This document shows positions 5,161 through 63,119 of a DNA stretch of 64,000 nucleotides, piece by piece. Origin of the DNA: Myxococcus xanthus. GTDB lineage: Bacteria > Myxococcota > Myxococcia > Myxococcales > Myxococcaceae. Position 1 is the stretch's first letter. Each line of letters begins with the position of its first letter. The DNA is taken from NCBI RefSeq assembly GCF_900106535.1, contig NZ_FNOH01000007.1, positions 310,001 through 374,000 on the forward strand. Reading direction: 5' to 3'. Made by a program: the position numbers and the translations under genes. The notes below the pieces were generated by a model. That model searched no databases and had not been told where the DNA came from. It was given only the letters and a program-made list of their open reading frames with translations.

Positions 5161-5234
5161 GATGGGAGGTGCGGGTGAGCGTAGCCTGGAACGGGGCGTT
5201 CAGGCACCATACAACGTGAGAGGTGGGTACGCGC

Positions 5235-6107
5235 ATGAGCAACCTGAGTGCGAGCGAGATGAACACGGTGCTGGCGCAGCGGCTCCTGTCCATCTTCGAG
5301 CGAAGCAGGGACCGGAAGTACACGGCGGCCAAGGCGGCAAAGAAGAAGAAGCCGAAGCCCGCAGCCAGCGCCGCGGACGACGCCGACCACGTGGACGACA
5401 GCGCCCCGCCCCGGGGCGTGCTCGGCAAAGACAGCGACTACGCGCAGAACGGCTCTGACTACATCGCGTCCCTGGACGGGCGTGGCGTGTACCGCGTCTT
5501 CGACCACTCCTACCTGGATGAAATCCGGGACCTGGTGAAGCAGACCGCTGAGTTCCCCGGGGGGCCACCGGAGAATTTCAACCCGAGGGCCAAGGACAAG
5601 GACAAGAAGCCCGCGCTCCAGAAGTACCCGTACGCGTGGGAGGCACACCACATCCTCCCGGGCTCGGCGTTCTACTACGAATTGGAGGACGGCCCGGTCT
5701 TCACATACCGGCAGCTCCGCCTCATCCTCCAGTCCGACTACAATCTGAACCACGGCCACAACATCATCATGCTGCCGGACCAGGCTTGGGCCGTGCCTGT
5801 CCACGCGCTGCTGCAGCACCCGGGCGACCATCCCAACTACACGCAGCAGGTGATGCGGGACATGAAAACCATCGCCCAAAAGCTTCAAAAGGCGATCGAC
5901 TCTCAAAAAGAACACAAGGCGTTGATCGAGGATGTTTTTGACCAGCTGCACAAGCTGGAGAACAAGTACTGGAAACTCCTCGTTGCACTGAGCCGAGCAG
6001 TTGTGGCCTCGGTCACCGCAGGAAAAGAGTACAAGCACGCCCTTGTGCGCTATGCCCCGAAGGACAAGAAGGCCAAGAGTCGTTATGAGTGGGGCTCTCT
6101 CTATTAA
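5235..6107 (+). CDS. AHH-family nuclease toxin
   Basis: A 290-residue protein with a putative nuclease domain of the AHH family (HNH/EndoVII superfamily). The motif WEAHHILPGSAF (residues ~135-146) has the namesake Ala-His-His. It is followed by the LNHGHNIIMLP asparagine/histidine segment and HALLQHPGDHPNY, matching the second metal/DNA-binding half. The N-terminus is basic and low complexity (KAAKKKKPKPAA) and may be a linker or docking segment; there is no signal peptide, PAAR or VgrG domain, so it would be a cargo-type effector. Three Imm11-type genes follow, the first 25 bp away. The 3' third is visibly richer in A/T than the surroundings, suggesting toxin-tip replacement. ATG 5235 was preferred over GTG 5223. 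Confidence 0.82.
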   Translation: MSNLSASEMNTVLAQRLLSIFERSRDRKYTAAKAAKKKKPKPAASAADDADHVDDSAPPRGVLGKDSDYAQNGSDYIASLDGRGVYRVFDHSYLDEIRDLVKQTAEFPGGPPENFNPRAKDKDKKPALQKYPYAWEAHHILPGSAFYYELEDGPVFTYRQLRLILQSDYNLNHGHNIIMLPDQAWAVPVHALLQHPGDHPNYTQQVMRDMKTIAQKLQKAIDSQKEHKALIEDVFDQLHKLENKYWKLLVALSRAVVASVTAGKEYKHALVRYAPKDKKAKSRYEWGSLY

Positions 6108-6132
6108 TTGAACCAGTCATTCGAGATTTTTC

Positions 6133-6717
6133 GTGAAATATTTTGTCTTCAAGGTCATGGCCGAAGAGGCGGGCTACATCGAGAAGCTTCCAAATGGCAG
6201 CCCTACTGATTGGAAGTTCCACGAAGGCATCAGCCTTGCCAAAGATTTTCCAGTAGGCGGGGAAGTTTCGTTTTCAAAAAACTATCCCGACAATCGGAAT
6301 CTCTATGATTTTCAACCCAATATCATGAGCAACCTGCTCGTCTCGGGACGGGCACGCAAGCTCATCGAGTCGCTCGGTGTCACCAATGCCGAATGGCTTC
6401 CGGTCGCCATCAAGGACCATCAGGGCAAGGTCGTGGGTCCGGACTACGCTTTCCTCAATCTCCTGGGTGCCGAAGACGCCATCGACATGGAACGCTCGGA
6501 GTACGAGATGGACTCCCTTGAGAAAGACCAAATCGGGAATATTGATGCGTTGGCTCTGGACACCAGCGCCATCCGTCCTGACGCGAAGATGTTCCGCTGC
6601 ACGAAGGAACGCCGTCTCATTCTCATCCGTGAAGACGTCCACGCTGCTTTCGAGCAAGCGGGCCTGACCGGCTTCAAGGTCTACGAAGCTGAAGGCTGGG
6701 ACGGACTGGAGCTCTGA
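6133..6717 (+). CDS. Imm11-family immunity protein, copy 1
   Basis: A 194-residue protein of the Imm11/DUF1629 type, a family found beside AHH-type nuclease toxins and expected to bind and block them. Conserved landmarks are LYDFQPN, SGRARKLIE, DYAFLNLLG, KMFRC, RRLILIRED and the C-terminal AGLTGFKVY. It uses a GTG start (6133) without a clear Shine-Dalgarno and begins 25 bp after the toxin stop, so translation may depend on the toxin gene. It is the first of three same-length, ungapped paralogues (this copy and copy 3 are about three quarters identical by eye). Its first half is unusually A/T-rich for this window. Confidence 0.82.
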   Translation: MKYFVFKVMAEEAGYIEKLPNGSPTDWKFHEGISLAKDFPVGGEVSFSKNYPDNRNLYDFQPNIMSNLLVSGRARKLIESLGVTNAEWLPVAIKDHQGKVVGPDYAFLNLLGAEDAIDMERSEYEMDSLEKDQIGNIDALALDTSAIRPDAKMFRCTKERRLILIREDVHAAFEQAGLTGFKVYEAEGWDGLEL

Positions 6718-6723
6718 CCCATC

Positions 6724-7080
6724 ATGTTCGAAGCCAATTGCATAGAAGAGCAGCCCGCCGACATCGTCGCCCGGGTCCTCGAGCAACAGTCTCCGTGCTT
6801 CGTCACCGCACGTGAGGGCGTCCGGGGGGTACTGGTACCCCTGGATGAGGTCTACACGGAGGTGCTGGAGGCGCATCCGCGCGTCATCAATGCCCGGATG
6901 AAGGACCTGGTCCGCCCAGGCAAGGACATGGCCATGTACTGCGTCCAGGTCAGCCTGTCTGATGAAAAGGATGCCATCCGCTTCACGGACGAAGAGGGAG
7001 AGCCAGTGCTCGCCTTGATCGGCGCCATGCGTTTCCTACGTTGGCTTGAAGAGGACGGCGAGGTCGACGAGGAATCATGA
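6724..7080 (+). CDS. Small acidic protein between immunity genes, unknown
   Basis: A 118-residue acidic cytoplasmic protein that I do not recognise. It begins 6 bp after the first Imm11 copy and ends 52 bp before the second, so it belongs to the same transcript. It has no signal peptide or membrane segment. Features are a single Cys near the N-terminus, a strand-rich core (CFVTAREGVRGVLVPLDEVYTEVLEAHP, MAMYCVQVSLSDEKDAIRF written as separate stretches here) and a strongly acidic tail (EEDGEVDEES). Its position suggests an accessory immunity or stabilising factor, but that is inference from context only. Codon use resembles the neighbouring immunity genes. Confidence 0.75.
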   Translation: MFEANCIEEQPADIVARVLEQQSPCFVTAREGVRGVLVPLDEVYTEVLEAHPRVINARMKDLVRPGKDMAMYCVQVSLSDEKDAIRFTDEEGEPVLALIGAMRFLRWLEEDGEVDEES

Positions 7081-7132
7081 AGCGCCGTCGCCACCGGCGG
7101 GTCCGGCATCTCACTCAGGATGGGGTTCGTCC

Positions 7133-7717
7133 GTGAAGTACTTCGTCTTCAAGGTCATGGCGGAAGAAGATGGATTCATTGATGCCTATCCACCTGGAAG
7201 CCCAGCAGACTGGAAGTTCGAAAAAGGCATCAGTCTCGCCAAGGATTTTCCAAAGGGTGGCGAGGTTGCCTTTTCCGATAACTACCCGGACGACCGGAAC
7301 CTCTATGACTTCCAGCCGAACTTGATGAGTGACCTGCTCATCTCGGGACGTGCGCGTCAGTTCATCGAATCGCTCGGCATCACCAACGCCGAATGGCTTC
7401 CGGTCGTGGTCAAGGACCATGAAGGTGCAGTGGTCGGTCCCGACTACGCCTTCCTCAACCTCCTCGGTGCCGAAGACGCCATCGACATGGCCCGTTCGGT
7501 CTACGAGATGAATCACATCTCCAAGGACCAAATCGGGCTTATCGAACAACTGGCTCTCAGCCCCGACAGAATCAGCCCTGATGCCAAGATGTTCCGATGC
7601 AGGACGTATCGTCGGCTCATCCTCGTTCGCGAAGACACCCTCGCGGCATTCCAACGCGCGGGACTGACAGGTTTCAGAACCTACGACGCCGAGGGATGGG
7701 ACGGCGTGGAACTCTGA
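7133..7717 (+). CDS. Imm11-family immunity protein, copy 2
   Basis: Second Imm11/DUF1629 paralogue, 194 residues, collinear without gaps with copies 1 and 3. It keeps LYDFQPN, SGRARQFIESLG, DYAFLNLLGAEDAIDM, KMFRC, RRLILVRED and AGLTGFRTY. The GTG start at 7133 aligns exactly with the starts of the other copies, and an AGGATGGGG stretch lies just upstream. Differences among copies are scattered rather than clustered, with the most variable segment around residues 120-150 (NHISKDQIGLIEQ in this copy). That pattern is consistent with each copy being tuned to a different toxin variant, which is an inference. Same operon as copies 1 and 3. Confidence 0.82.
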   Translation: MKYFVFKVMAEEDGFIDAYPPGSPADWKFEKGISLAKDFPKGGEVAFSDNYPDDRNLYDFQPNLMSDLLISGRARQFIESLGITNAEWLPVVVKDHEGAVVGPDYAFLNLLGAEDAIDMARSVYEMNHISKDQIGLIEQLALSPDRISPDAKMFRCRTYRRLILVREDTLAAFQRAGLTGFRTYDAEGWDGVEL

Positions 7718-7749
7718 GATCCTTTCGGGCCCAAGGAGACCGATACCCC

Positions 7750-8334
7750 ATGAAATACTTCGTCTTCAAGGTCCAAGGCATCGATGCAGGCTTCATCGAT
7801 GAATATCCCCGGGGAAGCCCGGCAGACTGGCAGTTCGACAAAGGCATCAGCCTCATCAAACAGTTTCCTGTGGGTGGTGAGGTCTCCTTCTCCAAGAACT
7901 ATCCAGACGACCGGACTGTCTACGATTTTCAACCGAACTTGATGAGCGACCTGCTTGTCTCAGGCCGCGCGCGCAAGCTCATCGAATCCCTGGAGGTCAC
8001 CAACGCGGAATGGCTTCCTGTCGTGGTCAAAAACCATCAAGGCGCCGTTGTGGGTCCCGATTACGCCTTCCTCAATCTCCAGGGTGCCGAAGACGCCATC
8101 GATATGGAGCGGTCGGTTTACAGGATGAACGCCATCGCCAAGGACCAGATTGGCCGCGTGAAGAAGCTGGCCCTGAAGTACGACGCCATCTCCCCGCAGG
8201 CGAAGCTGTTCCGCTGCACCATGGAGCGCCGCCTCATCCTCATCCGCGAGGACGTGCACGCTGCCTTCGTCCAGGCGGGCCTCACCGGCTTCAAGGTCTA
8301 CGTAGCCGAGGGTTGGAACGGCCTGGAGCTGTGA
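7750..8334 (+). CDS. Imm11-family immunity protein, copy 3
   Basis: Third Imm11/DUF1629 paralogue, 194 residues, the only copy with an ATG start (7750) and a good AAGGAG 12 bases upstream (7732-7737). It keeps VYDFQPN, SGRARKLIESLE, DYAFLNLQGAEDAIDM, KLFRC, RRLILIRED and AGLTGFKVY. Its 3' end is more GC-rich than copies 1 and 2, closer to the genome norm, as if it were the oldest resident. Its last 44 bp overlap, tail to tail, the 3' end of the ketosynthase-like gene on the other strand. Probably co-transcribed with the upstream toxin and immunity genes. Confidence 0.82.
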   Translation: MKYFVFKVQGIDAGFIDEYPRGSPADWQFDKGISLIKQFPVGGEVSFSKNYPDDRTVYDFQPNLMSDLLVSGRARKLIESLEVTNAEWLPVVVKNHQGAVVGPDYAFLNLQGAEDAIDMERSVYRMNAIAKDQIGRVKKLALKYDAISPQAKLFRCTMERRLILIREDVHAAFVQAGLTGFKVYVAEGWNGLEL

Positions 8335-40939: not shown

Positions 40940-41236
40940 ATGACCTCTGTCGCATCCTCCTCATGCGCCCCTTCGTCATCGCAGGCCTTCACCGTGCTCA
41001 TCCCACGCGGCCTTCAGGCGGCCGTGGAGGGGCTCGCGGCGGAGACCCGCCAGGAGCTGCTGGCCGAGCTGTTCCGCCTGGCCGCGCTGGCCCGGCAGGA
41101 GGAAAGTCAGCTACTCCCCGAGTTCCCGTACACGCTGCGGCTGGACGTCGCCGGCTGCCAGGTCAGCGTGGAGCTGGACCCGTCCCGCTCGCGCCTCACC
41201 CTAGTGGGCCTGCTGCGGCCCCAGCCGCTGGAGTGA
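40940..41236 (+). CDS. Small protein, RelE-like layout (tentative)
   Basis: A 98-residue protein. Its predicted layout is strand-helix-helix-strand-strand: FTVLIPRGLQAAVEGLAAE, RQELLAELFRLAALARQ, then YTLRLDVAGCQVSVELDPSRSRLTLVGLL (described as two strands). This is the order of RelE/ParE-type toxins, but the catalytic residues of RelE are not evident, so the call is weak. ATG 40940 has GGGG about 10 bases upstream. A 98-residue helical gene starts 29 bp later, which would fit a partner. Codon bias is like the neighbours, so it is probably real. Confidence 0.6.
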   Translation: MTSVASSSCAPSSSQAFTVLIPRGLQAAVEGLAAETRQELLAELFRLAALARQEESQLLPEFPYTLRLDVAGCQVSVELDPSRSRLTLVGLLRPQPLE

Positions 41237-41265: not shown

Positions 41266-41562
41266 ATGTCGCGCCGTGCTGGATACGCAGAATCCTGGGA
41301 CCTCACGTACCTGGTGGAGCAGCTCCGGGAGCTGATTGGGCACGACCTGCGCCTGGGCTCGGCCCTCAGCGATGAGCTGGAGGACGTCCTGGGCAGCCTG
41401 GTGCAGCGCAATCAGCGCCTGAGGGTCCTGCAGCGCATGGTGACCGCGGAACGCGCCCCAGAGGACCTGGCGGCCCTTCGCGGGGCATTGGAGGAGATGG
41501 ACCGGGAGCTGATGACCCGGCTGCCTGCGTTGCTCGAACAGCTGCGCCTGGCGCTGGCTTGA
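41266..41562 (+). CDS. Small helical protein, possible partner of preceding gene
   Basis: A 98-residue, almost entirely helical protein (LVEQLRELIGHDLRLGSALSDELEDVLGSLVQ; EDLAALRGALEEMDRELMTRLPALLEQLRLA given as separate helices), likely a coiled coil or four-helix partner. ATG 41266 is preceded by GGGGTGAG. It starts 29 bp after the preceding 98-residue gene, suggesting an operon. No family is recognised. It lies immediately upstream of the candidate origin region. Confidence 0.6.
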   Translation: MSRRAGYAESWDLTYLVEQLRELIGHDLRLGSALSDELEDVLGSLVQRNQRLRVLQRMVTAERAPEDLAALRGALEEMDRELMTRLPALLEQLRLALA

Positions 41563-41581: not shown

Positions 41582-41829
41582 GTTTCCACAGGCACTTCAT
41601 CCCCAGCGCCGACTGCTTCTTCTAAAGGTTCATAAGAGGTATTGATCTATTGGTAGTGGCAGTAGGCAGCTCGGACTTGGGGACAAGTCAGCAAGCTCCC
41701 GGGAACACTCACGAATTCGGGATGTGCTACATGTGGGTAAAGTGACGGTTATCCCCGGGAACCCACAGGTGTTGATCCACACCGAGGTTTCTCCACAGCC
41801 CCTCCCCCACTGTCCACAGGCCATCCACA
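41582..41829. other. oriC: Candidate replication origin: DnaA-box cluster with AT-rich patch
   Basis: In the 357-bp gap before the kinase gene, five same-direction 9-mers resemble the DnaA box TTATCCACA: TTATCCCCG (41749-41757), TGATCCACA (41773-41781), TTCTCCACA (41789-41797), CTGTCCACA (41810-41818) and CCATCCACA (41821-41829), with one or two mismatches each. GTTTCCACA (41582-41590) is a more distant sixth. Between them and upstream lies an AT-rich tract (~41615-41660, e.g. TTCATAAGAGGTATTGATC), as expected for a DNA-unwinding element. The boxes sit within 81 bp. dnaA itself lies ~20 kb away. That this is the functional oriC is inference. Confidence 0.6.
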
Positions 41830-41919
41830 GCTTCCGAGTGGATGCGGGAACCACCCCAGGTGGAGGCCCGTTCTCACCACACGTCCGCCCCGCACATGCC
41901 TGTTATCGTCTGGCGCGGG

Positions 41920-43632
41920 ATGTGCCCCGACAGCGGGGTGCCGGCGGAGGGTTTCCCCATCGACTTCTATCGGGGCGAGCGCATCGGGAAGTACGAGGTC
42001 GTCACGCAGCTCTCCGTGGGCGGAATGGCGGAGCTGTTCCTGGGCTTCACTTCGGGTCCGGGTGGCTTCCGCAAGTACGTGGTCATCAAGCGGGTGCTGC
42101 CGGACGCGCGGGACAATGCGCAGTTCGAACGCATGTTCCTGGACGAGGCGCGCATCACCGCGGCCTTCAACCACCCGAACATCGCGCAGGTGTTCGACCT
42201 GGGGCGCGAGGATGACGGGCTCTACCTGGCCATGGAGTTCATCGCCGGGCAGAACCTGAACCAGATTACCGGCGCGTGCCTGCGCCGCCAGGAGCAGCTC
42301 CCGCTGGGCTTCACGCTGTCGGTGGCGCGCGACGTCTGCATGGCGCTGCACTACGCGCACACCTATACGGCGCCCTCCGGCGCGCCCAGCCCCGTCATCC
42401 ACCGCGACGTCGCCCAGAAGAACATCATGGTGACGTACGACGGCGTGGTGAAGCTGCTCGACTTCGGCATCGCCAAGGCGAAGGACAGCTTGGAGCGCAC
42501 CAACGTCGGCACGGTGAAGGGCACCACCGGGTACATGTCCCCGGAGCAGGTGCGGGGCGATACACTGGATGGCCGCAGTGACTTGTTCTCCGTCGGGGTG
42601 ATGATGCACGAGCTCATCACCGGCGCGCGCCTGTTCGCGGGCAAGAATGAGCGCGACGAGATGATGAAGATCCTGGAGGCGCCCGTCCCCTGGCCCTCGC
42701 ACGTCGCGCCGCACGTGCCCGAAGAGGTGTCCAAGGTGGTGATGCGGGCGCTGGAGCGCAGCCGCGAGAAGCGCTTCGCCAACGGCCGGGACATGGCCCG
42801 GGCGATTGAAGCGGCGGCGGGCAAGTTGCTGCTGGACGCGCATGACCGGGCCGCGCTGATGCAGGACTGGTTCGCCGAGCGCATGTCCGCCACGCGCGTC
42901 ATGCTGGAGTCCGCGGACGGCACCACCAACGGCGTCATGCTGGACTCCGCGAAGCGGGCCCTGCGCAGTGATGACGGACCCTACCTCCCCGAGCGCAAGG
43001 ACATCCCGACGCCGTCGAACGGCGTGGCCGGCATGCCGCGCAAGCCCTCGCGCAAGGTGCCCGCTGCTGCGGCGCCCCGGAAGGCTTCGGCGGCCGTGGA
43101 GGGCACGCCGCAGCCGCCGGAGAGCAAGGCCTCCAATGTGCTGTGGGGGCTGGTGCTGATGGGCATCCTGGTGGGCGGTGGCTATGCCGCCTGGCACCTG
43201 TCGAAGGTGCTGAACGAGACGGTGGATGAAAAGGACGCGAGCGCGCTGCGCACCCTCCCCCAACACGACCCGAACCTGCCCGTCTACCTGGGACCAGGCT
43301 CGGGCCCGCCCACGGATGCCGGCAACACGGAGACTCCAGCGAAGGTGTCGGGCGGCGAGGACGCGGAGGGCTCCCGTTCCAAGGAGGCGGCGAGCGCCCG
43401 TCCGGTGAAGGGCCGGGGCAAGCTGACCTTGCTGGTGCTGCCGGAGGCGGAGGTCTTCCGAGGCAAGAAGCGGGTGGGCCGCACGCCGATGTTCAACGTG
43501 GCGATGCCCGCGGGGGAGCACGACCTGACCATCGTGGGCCCGGACGGCAAGAAGCGCATGCTGTCGGTGCCGATCAGCGCCGGGGAGACGACCCAGTTCC
43601 GGCTGAAGCTGGCGGAAATCCCCGAGCGCTGA
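41920..43632 (+). CDS. Membrane Ser/Thr protein kinase with C-terminal PEGA domain (paralogue)
   Basis: A 570-residue kinase paralogous to the one at 32.1 kb but with a short linker. The kinase core has LSVGGMAELFLGF, VVIKRVLP, VIHRDVAQKNIMV, LDFGIAK and TGYMSPEQVRG. A single span lies near 406-426 (LWGLVLMGILVGGGYAAWHL), and the PEGA domain is at ~500-565 (GKLTLLVLPEAEVFRGKKRVG...). The start is uncertain: ATG 41920 (MCPDSGVPAEG) or ATG 41896; 41920 was chosen for its GCGGG upstream. It sits directly downstream of the candidate origin. It is followed 79 bp later by glutathione synthetase. Substrates are unknown. Confidence 0.9.
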   Translation: MCPDSGVPAEGFPIDFYRGERIGKYEVVTQLSVGGMAELFLGFTSGPGGFRKYVVIKRVLPDARDNAQFERMFLDEARITAAFNHPNIAQVFDLGREDDGLYLAMEFIAGQNLNQITGACLRRQEQLPLGFTLSVARDVCMALHYAHTYTAPSGAPSPVIHRDVAQKNIMVTYDGVVKLLDFGIAKAKDSLERTNVGTVKGTTGYMSPEQVRGDTLDGRSDLFSVGVMMHELITGARLFAGKNERDEMMKILEAPVPWPSHVAPHVPEEVSKVVMRALERSREKRFANGRDMARAIEAAAGKLLLDAHDRAALMQDWFAERMSATRVMLESADGTTNGVMLDSAKRALRSDDGPYLPERKDIPTPSNGVAGMPRKPSRKVPAAAAPRKASAAVEGTPQPPESKASNVLWGLVLMGILVGGGYAAWHLSKVLNETVDEKDASALRTLPQHDPNLPVYLGPGSGPPTDAGNTETPAKVSGGEDAEGSRSKEAASARPVKGRGKLTLLVLPEAEVFRGKKRVGRTPMFNVAMPAGEHDLTIVGPDGKKRMLSVPISAGETTQFRLKLAEIPER

Positions 43633-46802: not shown

Positions 46803-46832
46803 AGCGGACGCCGGCTCAGACCGGCGTCCGCT
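46803..46832. terminator. Bidirectional terminator hairpin overlapping hipA-like stop
   Basis: Perfect 12-bp arms AGCGGACGCCGG (46803-46814) and complement (46821-46832) around CTCAGA. It lies between the convergent esterase (ends 46794) and HipA-like (ends 46816) genes and includes the latter's stop codon. Confidence 0.7.
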
Positions 46833-48126
46833 GCATCAGCGCGGCAAGTGAGTCCCTGCATCGTGCGCAGTGGCCGCGGAACGTGTCGCTGAGTTCGGGG
46901 GTCTGCTCCAGCCGGCTCCAGTAGGCCAGTGCGTGTTGTGCGGCATCGGCCCAGACATCGAGCGTCTCCGAGGTGGGCGGCCGGGGCTCGAAGGTGCGAT
47001 CGATGATGCTCGTGCCCACGGGGGCGAACATCATCGGGAGCATGTCGTAGGCAGGGGCGAGCCGGAACCGCTTGGGTCCGTCCTCGAAGAAGGAGAGGTT
47101 GCCGAAGTGCCGGTCGGTGTTGCCGGTGAGCTGCCCGAAGGTGTCGAGCCAGCGAATGCGCCTGACGTCCTCTTCGCTGATGTACTGGCTCTGGAGGAGG
47201 TAGCGGGCCGCGCTGGTCCAGGTGCTCCCCTTCCCTTCGTGGCCGAGGTACTCGTTGTCGATGGCCTTGAGTGAGAGCAGCGCCTTGCGGCCTCTTTCAC
47301 CCACCCGGTCGAAGCGCTCGACCTCGAGGAACTGGTAGCCCTCGACGCGGATGGAGCGCGAAGCCGCGGCCGGAATCCCGGCGTTGCGGACCACTTCGAG
47401 CGCGAGGCCTTCGCAGACGAGCAGCTCTCTCCAACGTTGGGCGGCGGCGCCGTCATCGTTGGCCGCGAACTTCACCAGGACGTGGCGTCGCTCGGCATAG
47501 GCAGTGAACTTGGGTTGATCGCCACCGGCGAAGGAGCCTGCCTCGCTCGACATCGATGAGCGGGCGAGCTCCGGGTACTGGGCCTCGGTGACGGGCCGAA
47601 GCGGGCTTGCGAGAAACCGGTCCAGGGAGGCCGCGCCGATGATGTGGTTTCCGACGCAGTCATCGCCTCGCAACGCCAGTGCGATGAGCTGGTGGTCCTC
47701 CGTCCAGTCCGTGATGCGAGGGGGGAGTCCCAACTCGAGGTGACGGCTCGTGAAGCCTCGGCCCAGGTAGCCCTGAGGGCTCATGTCGGCGGCGAAAGGC
47801 GGCAGCCCGGCGAACCGTTCACCTACCCCGTCCTCTCGCGCAATCCAGCAGCCCCCGTTCCACAGCGGGTGCAGGACGCCTGCCTCGTGGGGACGGCCGG
47901 TCTCGTCGACGCGGTACATCCGTACCTGTTCGCCCAAGGGGGCAATCGAGCGGGTCCGCGCATAGCGTGTGGCGGGCCCCTGCCCCATTCGGCAGACGCT
48001 CGGGCCTGCGGAGGCCAGCAACCGCGACACTGTCGGGCGTGACACCCGGAGCTGGGTAGCCAGCTCGCTCCCCTTCACCTCGACCTGACGTCCGAGTACG
48101 GCGAGCAGTTGTTCCAGGGTTGCCAT
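46816..48126 (-). CDS. HipA-like kinase with fused N-terminal HTH (YjjJ type)
   Basis: A 436-residue protein combining an N-terminal winged-helix (VEVKGSELATQLRVSRPTVSRLLASAG, ~residues 15-42) with a HipA-type Ser/Thr kinase fold. HipA signatures: SFAGGDQPKFTAY (phosphate-binding loop), WLDTFGQLTGNTDRHFGNLSFF (catalytic Asp-x-x-x-x-Asn) and LAPAYDMLPMMF (metal-binding Asp). E. coli YjjJ has the same HTH-HipA fusion. HipA toxins phosphorylate GltX; the substrate here is unknown. No separate hipB is present, so the HTH may provide self-regulation; GATATCG inverted repeats lie 30-56 bp upstream of the start. ATG 48126 has AGGA upstream. Confidence 0.88.
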   Translation of the reverse strand: MATLEQLLAVLGRQVEVKGSELATQLRVSRPTVSRLLASAGPSVCRMGQGPATRYARTRSIAPLGEQVRMYRVDETGRPHEAGVLHPLWNGGCWIAREDGVGERFAGLPPFAADMSPQGYLGRGFTSRHLELGLPPRITDWTEDHQLIALALRGDDCVGNHIIGAASLDRFLASPLRPVTEAQYPELARSSMSSEAGSFAGGDQPKFTAYAERRHVLVKFAANDDGAAAQRWRELLVCEGLALEVVRNAGIPAAASRSIRVEGYQFLEVERFDRVGERGRKALLSLKAIDNEYLGHEGKGSTWTSAARYLLQSQYISEEDVRRIRWLDTFGQLTGNTDRHFGNLSFFEDGPKRFRLAPAYDMLPMMFAPVGTSIIDRTFEPRPPTSETLDVWADAAQHALAYWSRLEQTPELSDTFRGHCARCRDSLAALMQRTPV

Positions 48127-61745: not shown

Positions 61746-61769
61746 TGAAACAAAGGTACGGCTGTTTCA
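61746..61769 (-). terminator. Inverted repeat at dnaA 3' end
   Basis: TGAAACA (61746-61752) and TGTTTCA (61763-61769) form 7-bp inverted arms with 10-bp spacing; the second arm includes the dnaA stop (61767-61769). A weak hairpin; could be a terminator or a protein site. Confidence 0.35.
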
Positions 61770-63119
61770 GGGATTGCCGAGCTTCAATTCCAGCTCCGCC
61801 AACTCACGCTGCACGGTGGCATCCGTCACGCGGAGGCCTTCCACCTTGCGAACCGCGGAGATGACGGTGGAGTGGTCCTTGCTGAAGCGCGCGGCGATTT
61901 CCGGGAAGGAGCTCTTCGTCAGCTTGCGGCTGAGGTACATGGCCACCTGGCGCGCATGGGCCAGGGCCTTGTGCCGGCGGTCTTCCTTCAGCGACTCCAC
62001 CGTGACTTTGTAGAAGCGGGCCACCTCGCGCTGGATGGCCTCCACGTCCACCGCGCTGTGGGCGGGGAGGATGTCGCGCAGCACCTGGGACGCGAAGTCC
62101 TCCGTCACGGGCTGGCGCGTCAGGCTGTGCACCGCGGACAGCTTCACCAGCGCGCCTTCCAACTCGCGCACGTTCTTCTGGATGTGCTTGGCGATGAAGT
62201 GCGCCACCGAGTCCGGCAGGTCCAGACCTTCGGCCACGGCCTTCTTCTGGAGGATGGCCACCCGCGTCTCGTAGGTGGGCTCGCGGATGTCCGTCATCAG
62301 CCCCATGGCGAAGCGGCTGCGCAGCCGGTCCTCCAGGCCCGGAATCTCCGCGGGCACGGTGTCGCTGGTGAGGACGATGGCCTTGTTCATCTCGTAGAGC
62401 GTGTTGAAGGTGTAGAAGAACTCCTTCTGCGTCTCCTCACGCTTGCCGAGGAACTGGATGTCGTCGAGGAGGAGCACGTCGCACTCCTCACGGAACTTCC
62501 GGCGGAAGTCCCCCATGCGGTGCTCGCGGACGCTCTCCACGTACTCGTTGGTGAACTGCTCGCTGGAGAGGAACACCACGCGCTGGGATGGATCTCGCTC
62601 CCAGATGAGGTTGCCCACTGCCTGGAGCAGGTGCGTCTTGCCCAGACCCGTGCCGCCGTAGATGTAGAGCGGGTTGTAGTGGTGGCCCGGCTTGTCGGCC
62701 ACGGCCTGCGCCGCGGCGGCCGGGAGCTGGTTGCTGTCCGCCACCACGAAGGTGTCGAAGGTGAAGCGCGCGTTCAGCCGGCCCGGACGCGTGGCGCTCG
62801 CCTTGACTGAGGGTGTGGGTGGAAAATGCGGGTCCGGCTCCAGGCCCTCCACTACCTCATAGGCGATGGAGGTCAGGCCCTCCCCCATCCGTGCGAGCTG
62901 GACATCCAGCATGGGGCGGTAGTGGTCATCCACCCAGTCGCGGAAGAAGCGGTCCGGAACGCCCATCACCAGGGCACCGTCACGCACCTCCAGCGGGCGC
63001 ATCCGCTCCAGCCATCTCAGCGCGTAGTCGAACTTCTCCTGGCGGATGGCATCCAGCATCCGAGCCCAGAGAATTCCAGCACTTGGGAGGGGGGTAGCGG
63101 CTTGGGCGAGGGCGTTCAC
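61767..63119 (-). CDS. dnaA: Chromosomal replication initiator DnaA
   Basis: A 450-residue DnaA. Domain I (~1-85) is typical, starting ILWARMLDAIRQEKFDYALRWLERM. The AAA+ domain III has Walker A IYGGTGLGKTHLLQAVGN (~152-168), Walker B DVLLLDDIQFLGKRE, sensor ALVLTSDTVP and the Arg finger region PGLEDRLRSRF. Domain IV has RRHKALAHARQVAMYLSRKLTK and the signature SKDHSTVISAVRKVE for box binding. Start is GTG 63119; no strong Shine-Dalgarno is seen. DnaA binds 9-mers at oriC and its own leader; TGATCCACA-like boxes are present upstream (63187-63285). dnaN is not adjacent, unusual among bacteria. Confidence 0.97.
   Translation of the reverse strand: MNALAQAATPLPSAGILWARMLDAIRQEKFDYALRWLERMRPLEVRDGALVMGVPDRFFRDWVDDHYRPMLDVQLARMGEGLTSIAYEVVEGLEPDPHFPPTPSVKASATRPGRLNARFTFDTFVVADSNQLPAAAAQAVADKPGHHYNPLYIYGGTGLGKTHLLQAVGNLIWERDPSQRVVFLSSEQFTNEYVESVREHRMGDFRRKFREECDVLLLDDIQFLGKREETQKEFFYTFNTLYEMNKAIVLTSDTVPAEIPGLEDRLRSRFAMGLMTDIREPTYETRVAILQKKAVAEGLDLPDSVAHFIAKHIQKNVRELEGALVKLSAVHSLTRQPVTEDFASQVLRDILPAHSAVDVEAIQREVARFYKVTVESLKEDRRHKALAHARQVAMYLSRKLTKSSFPEIAARFSKDHSTVISAVRKVEGLRVTDATVQRELAELELKLGNP

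Follow-up and report, generated by a model that had tools for sequence, protein, structure and literature searches.

Genes and features of the locus

The window, a stretch of 64,000 nucleotides of Myxococcus xanthus DNA, corresponds to bases 310001-374000 of contig C7 in a 9.26-Mb draft genome of 91 contigs. Between a short open reading frame and a Ser/Thr protein kinase gene, it contains an intergenic segment in which an array of DnaA boxes adjoins an AT-rich tract, and dnaA itself lies farther to the right. The features, in window coordinates, are:

41266-41562, plus strand: 98-aa open reading frame on the AT-rich side of the array, no Pfam match
41582-41830, no strand assigned: predicted oriC (DnaA-box array and AT-rich unwinding tract), for which box clustering, conservation, and genome-wide uniqueness were all computed
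41582-41590, plus strand: DnaA-box-like GTTTCCACA, TCCACA core kept and first three bases variable, 80% mean identity in the genus
41597-41605, plus strand: weak box TCATCCCCA, from matrix match and genus alignment
41615-41652, no strand assigned: AT-rich tract, candidate DNA unwinding element from A+T content and alignment, containing the conserved TATTGATC
41648-41665, plus strand: DnaA-trio-like array 3'-GAT GAC GGT GAT GGT TAT-5', four of six triplets fitting NAN
41678-41686, minus strand: box TTGTCCCCA, 12 bp from the trio-like array, 99% conserved in 27 genus genomes
41732-41740, minus strand: box TTACCCACA within the block TGCTACATGTGGGTAA, 100% conserved in 27 genus genomes
41749-41757, plus strand: box TTATCCCCG, 92% conserved in the genus
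41773-41781, plus strand: box TGATCCACA, 95% conserved in the genus
41789-41797, plus strand: box TTCTCCACA, 100% conserved in the genus
41810-41818, plus strand: box CTGTCCACA, 95% conserved in the genus
41821-41829, plus strand: box CCATCCACA, 100% conserved in the genus
41842-43632, plus strand: Ser/Thr protein kinase gene (PF00069, E 2.7e-35)
61767-63119, minus strand: dnaA, 3' end facing the predicted origin

Six of these 9-mers (GTTTCCACA to CCATCCACA) had been named in an earlier, sequence-only reading of the window, and each was found at its given position on the plus strand. Three boxes had been overlooked, namely the minus-strand boxes at 41678 and 41732 and the weaker one at 41597. 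The two minus-strand boxes are members of the array and among its best conserved boxes, and the counterpart of the 41678 box in genome G033 is TTTTCCACA. The majority of boxes in the cluster depart from TTATCCACA. The AT-rich tract reported beside the boxes was also recovered, with 70% A+T at 41620-41649 against 31% for the window, a composition from which melting would be predicted, as for an unwinding tract adjoining the boxes of an oriC. Folding of the segment revealed no secondary structure exceeding that of shuffled sequences (z 0.13). The downstream gene had been described as a PEGA kinase, of which the kinase domain stood while the PEGA domain fell under the Pfam cut-off. Its translation probably begins some 28 codons after 41842, as the majority of relatives align only from residue 19-41 onward.

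Box clustering against chance

The boxes of the segment are clustered well over chance, as is typical of an oriC. With a generic DnaA-box matrix, derived from the general consensus and independent of the window site, 454 kb of the contig were scanned, and 10 matches were found within 250 bp at the cluster, compared with 4 in the next-best 250-bp stretch and a maximum of 5 in 20 first-order Markov copies of the same 454 kb. In the whole 9.26-Mb genome, the pattern TCCACA-N(3-18)-TCCACA-N(3-18)-TCCACA matches at the cluster only (two overlapping matches; the reversed-pattern control gave one match in the genome), and the cluster is likewise the single place with three same-strand TCCACA within 60 bp. 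When counted over the whole window, TTWTNCACA with one mismatch allowed is found 19 times against 12.9 expected, which is hardly above chance, and it is thus the clustering that matters. Two more conventional locations were considered and rejected: just upstream of dnaA, the boxes are merely scattered, and dnaN is 261 kb away with no box cluster beside it among the contig's best.

A BUS-like putative unwinding module

In B. subtilis and other bacteria, a basal unwinding system (BUS, DnaA boxes plus DnaA-trios) is recognised by a DnaA box with at most two mismatches, separated by 0-16 bp from a run of three or more NAN triplets (PMC8287927). The window site has the same order of elements, with the 41678 box followed by a 12-bp spacer, the trio-like array, and the AT-rich tract; yet, unlike in B. 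subtilis, the trio array is interrupted in the window's genome. As judged from its sequence, the module is laid out like a BUS, but the strict rule is not satisfied in the window's genome. At the corresponding place, and with the same 12-bp spacer, more than half of 29 aligned genomes do satisfy it; with both strands counted, the 454 kb of contig contain 37 matches to the rule.

Conservation in relatives and earlier predictions

A search for the same cluster in related genomes had been suggested as a check on the site, and the cluster proved to be present at the same place and strongly conserved in all near relatives. At the DNA level, the 279-bp intergenic segment was recovered from all 26 remaining genus genomes and from three more genera of the family. 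In the genus alignment, the box columns are 94% identical compared with 83% for the other columns (circular-shift p 0.008). A profile of the segment extends the series to other genera, confirming the DNA match in G029 (E 5e-31) and finding the element in G034 (E 1e-23), beside a kinase in G027 (E 2e-4), next to a kinase gene that abuts dnaA in G036 (E 1e-6), and directly 3' of dnaA in G032 (E 8e-7) and G035 (E 1e-4), where dnaN follows at about 0.7 kb and 6 kb from the element, respectively. Like the G032 element of the same family, a match in G057, from another family, is located between dnaA and dnaN (E 1e-3). Wherever it was read, the order of dnaA 3' end, boxes, trio-like array, and AT-rich tract is the same. 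A TGCTACA motif common to the window site and the dnaA-dnaN gaps of other families was rejected as proof of homology, as it is oriented differently with respect to the box-trio module and looks promoter-like there.

These comparisons also bear on the idea that the cluster titrates DnaA or regulates the kinase gene without being an origin. While the cluster does lie directly upstream of the kinase gene in most genomes, the element is beside dnaA with no kinase intervening in G032 and G035, G034 has retained the cluster without the kinase, and the skew minimum described below coincides with the cluster, making such a role on its own extremely improbable.

An origin at this site had been predicted earlier in sister species. 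The M. hansupus origin was placed at 8,613,829-8,614,077 on the basis of the M. xanthus and M. fulvus records in DoriC; dnaA lies about 31 kb away at 8,645,240-8,646,592 (PMC4765838). The window segment matches G017 at 8,613,821-8,614,077 with 91% identity, and dnaA is 31 kb away there. The DoriC Myxococcus origins (M. xanthus ORI92210206, M. fulvus ORI94030396) and the M. hansupus origin, all of them in silico entries, are orthologous to the window site (PMC4765838). Described in more detail here are the DnaA sites, their conservation, and the path of separation from dnaA; the accessible part of the M. hansupus account contains no box order, minus-strand boxes, or family-wide comparison (PMC4765838). 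In the open-access literature that was searched, no experimental mapping of any Myxococcus origin was found.

Strand composition and a second DnaA-box site

Cumulative GC skew along C7 falls over 351 kb and then rises, with its minimum at window position 41226, only 356 bp from the cluster, in agreement with the inflection that the sequence-only reading had proposed to look for. In complete genomes, the minimum is 692 bp (G013), 695 bp (G007), and 476 bp (G017) from the orthologous site, and overall it falls within 0.7 kb of the site in four of the six genomes tested over at least 200 kb (G000, G013, G007, and G017). On shorter stretches it is 3.5 kb off in G036 and 10 kb off in G034. At coarse sampling, the skew of the complete G013 chromosome changes sign somewhere from 6.76 to 7.28 Mb, a range that includes the site (6.92 Mb). 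The strand-composition switch expected of an oriC is thus found at the site, with the exceptions of G009 and G033, where the raw minimum is 77 kb and 134 kb, respectively, from the cluster ortholog and displaced towards the gap between mnmG and rsmG. The minimum is nearer this gap than the window cluster in two of eight genomes.

The mnmG-rsmG gap is located at about 397.57-397.67 kb of C7 (397562-397672; window coordinates 87562-87672), outside the window and 46 kb to the right of the cluster. It carries three good minus-strand boxes (TTGTCCACA, TTTCCCACA, and TTATCCACA), which the genus and most of the family have kept; two further families have similar boxes. One of the boxes overlaps the rsmG start codon. 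Nearby, 24 parS-like sites (at most two mismatches) are found within 6.4 kb of C7 (401212-407562), about 50 kb from the predicted origin, 30 kb from dnaA, and 4 kb from the mnmG-rsmG site. Studies of chromosome segregation in M. xanthus take position 1 as a skew-based ori and put parABS 30-35 kb from it; this figure may have been measured from dnaA, as the parS sites here are 30 kb from dnaA but 50 kb from the cluster.

It could be speculated that the mnmG-rsmG site is the working origin and the window cluster a leftover or accessory site. The conserved boxes, the adjoining rsmG gene, the parS cluster 4 kb away, and a skew minimum at a distance of 1.6 kb (G033) or 9 kb (G009) from the site would agree with this. 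Yet, the gap holds no more than three boxes, spread over about 110 bp. Four of six genomes have their minimum at the window cluster, to which the minima of G034 and G036 are also closer. By profile score (E 0.27 at best), the mnmG-rsmG site is not homologous to the origin linked to dnaA, and this explanation appears very unlikely.

In five genus genomes, fourfold-site skew averaged across the two gene orientations is -0.065 left of the window cluster and +0.100 on the right arm beyond the mnmG-rsmG site. Between the two sites it is +0.011 (95% -0.019 to +0.039) and differs from both arms, while in G033 the interval has the skew of the left arm (-0.13). G000, G009, and G033 are collinear across the interval, which insertions have lengthened. 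Inversion is out as the source of the odd G033 skew, as the interval there is collinear with the window's contig. Insertions alone are insufficient to explain the neutral skew, as interval genes shared within the genus have the same skew pattern as other interval genes and are neutral too. For the skew-neutral interval (C7 351.7-397.6 kb and its counterparts), a recent shift, two start sites, or slow equilibration would all fit.

A reading in which both sites initiate, or in which usage moved between lineages, with the interval replicated in either direction, would account for an interval skew that is intermediate and unlike either arm in the genus, also for the genes shared with G033, and for a minimum that falls at the window cluster in Myxococcus-like genomes but at mnmG-rsmG in G033. 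However, the interval spans just 41-86 kb in the genus and holds few genes, the genomes are related, and in G009 and G033 much of the interval is inserted DNA that may be off equilibrium; this reading is considered quite improbable. Stated for the Myxococcaceae as a whole, namely that two conserved DnaA-box sites flanking dnaA are both able to initiate, or that initiation moved between lineages, leaving the interval unbiased, the proposal is unlikely.

Proposed origin and its separation from dnaA

The segment at 41582-41830 is very probably the chromosomal replication origin (oriC). That an origin would be found about 20 kb from dnaA and away from dnaN had been suggested from the sequence, and the skew inflection at the cluster, conservation in relatives, and the published M. 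hansupus annotation support it, with dnaA at the expected distance and dnaN 261 kb distant on the other side of the site. Counting against it are the displaced skew minima of G009 and G033, an interval skew near zero in the genus (and at the left-arm value in G033) where a value like that of the right arm would be expected, the departure of most boxes from TTATCCACA, and the interrupted trio array. In the proposed working, DnaA would bind the 41749-41829 run of plus-strand boxes together with the 41732 and 41678 boxes of the minus strand, and a DnaA filament would grow from the 41678 box onto the trio-like strand at 41648-41665. The filament may then open the AT-rich tract at about 41615-41652, where helicase would be loaded and from which forks would leave both ways.

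Unlike in dnaA-oriC-dnaN origins, the window site adjoins neither dnaA (20 kb) nor dnaN (261 kb), whereas its G032 homolog does have this arrangement. Insertion of genes appears to have moved the origin away from dnaA, since in a second genus of the family the profile finds the element immediately downstream of dnaA and adjacent to dnaN. The ancestral state would be an ordinary dnaA-oriC-dnaN arrangement, into which first the kinase gene and then at least 18 kb of other genes may have come between dnaA and the origin, with dnaN ending up 261 kb off on the other side. We infer that the origin beside dnaA came first, as the boxes of other families are often just downstream of dnaA too. E. coli oriC is similar in that it lies apart from dnaA with boxes beside an unwinding tract; its flanking genes differ, and the likeness is one of layout.

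In complete genomes, dnaA and the origin are 20-46 kb apart within the genus and 87 kb apart in G033, giving a graded series from an origin beside dnaA and dnaN to one 87 kb from dnaA, with genes coming between the initiator gene and the origin. Proximity to dnaA is a poor proxy for the origin in myxobacteria, and several of the complete genomes compared are numbered from dnaA, at least 20 kb from the site. For a well-studied group, the predicted origin is narrowed to about 250 bp, while the family-wide series and the skew-neutral interval may be of interest to specialists.

Other observations

Upstream of dnaA, at 260-350 bp, at least four minus-strand DnaA boxes are found at loci L203, L204, L065, and L064 (G031, G028, G030, and G036, respectively). 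These boxes of some other genera of the family, possibly involved in autoregulation, are not seen in the window's genus. The draft genome G032 carries two different dnaA/dnaN pairs, on contigs C32 and C382, one of which is possibly a contaminating contig. Within the window, the region at 5223-8334 has a lower GC content and encodes an AHH-type nuclease domain protein and two Imm11 immunity proteins, and is probably a contact-dependent competition island. Finally, a HipA-C domain protein (PF07804, E 2e-23) is encoded at 46816-48126.
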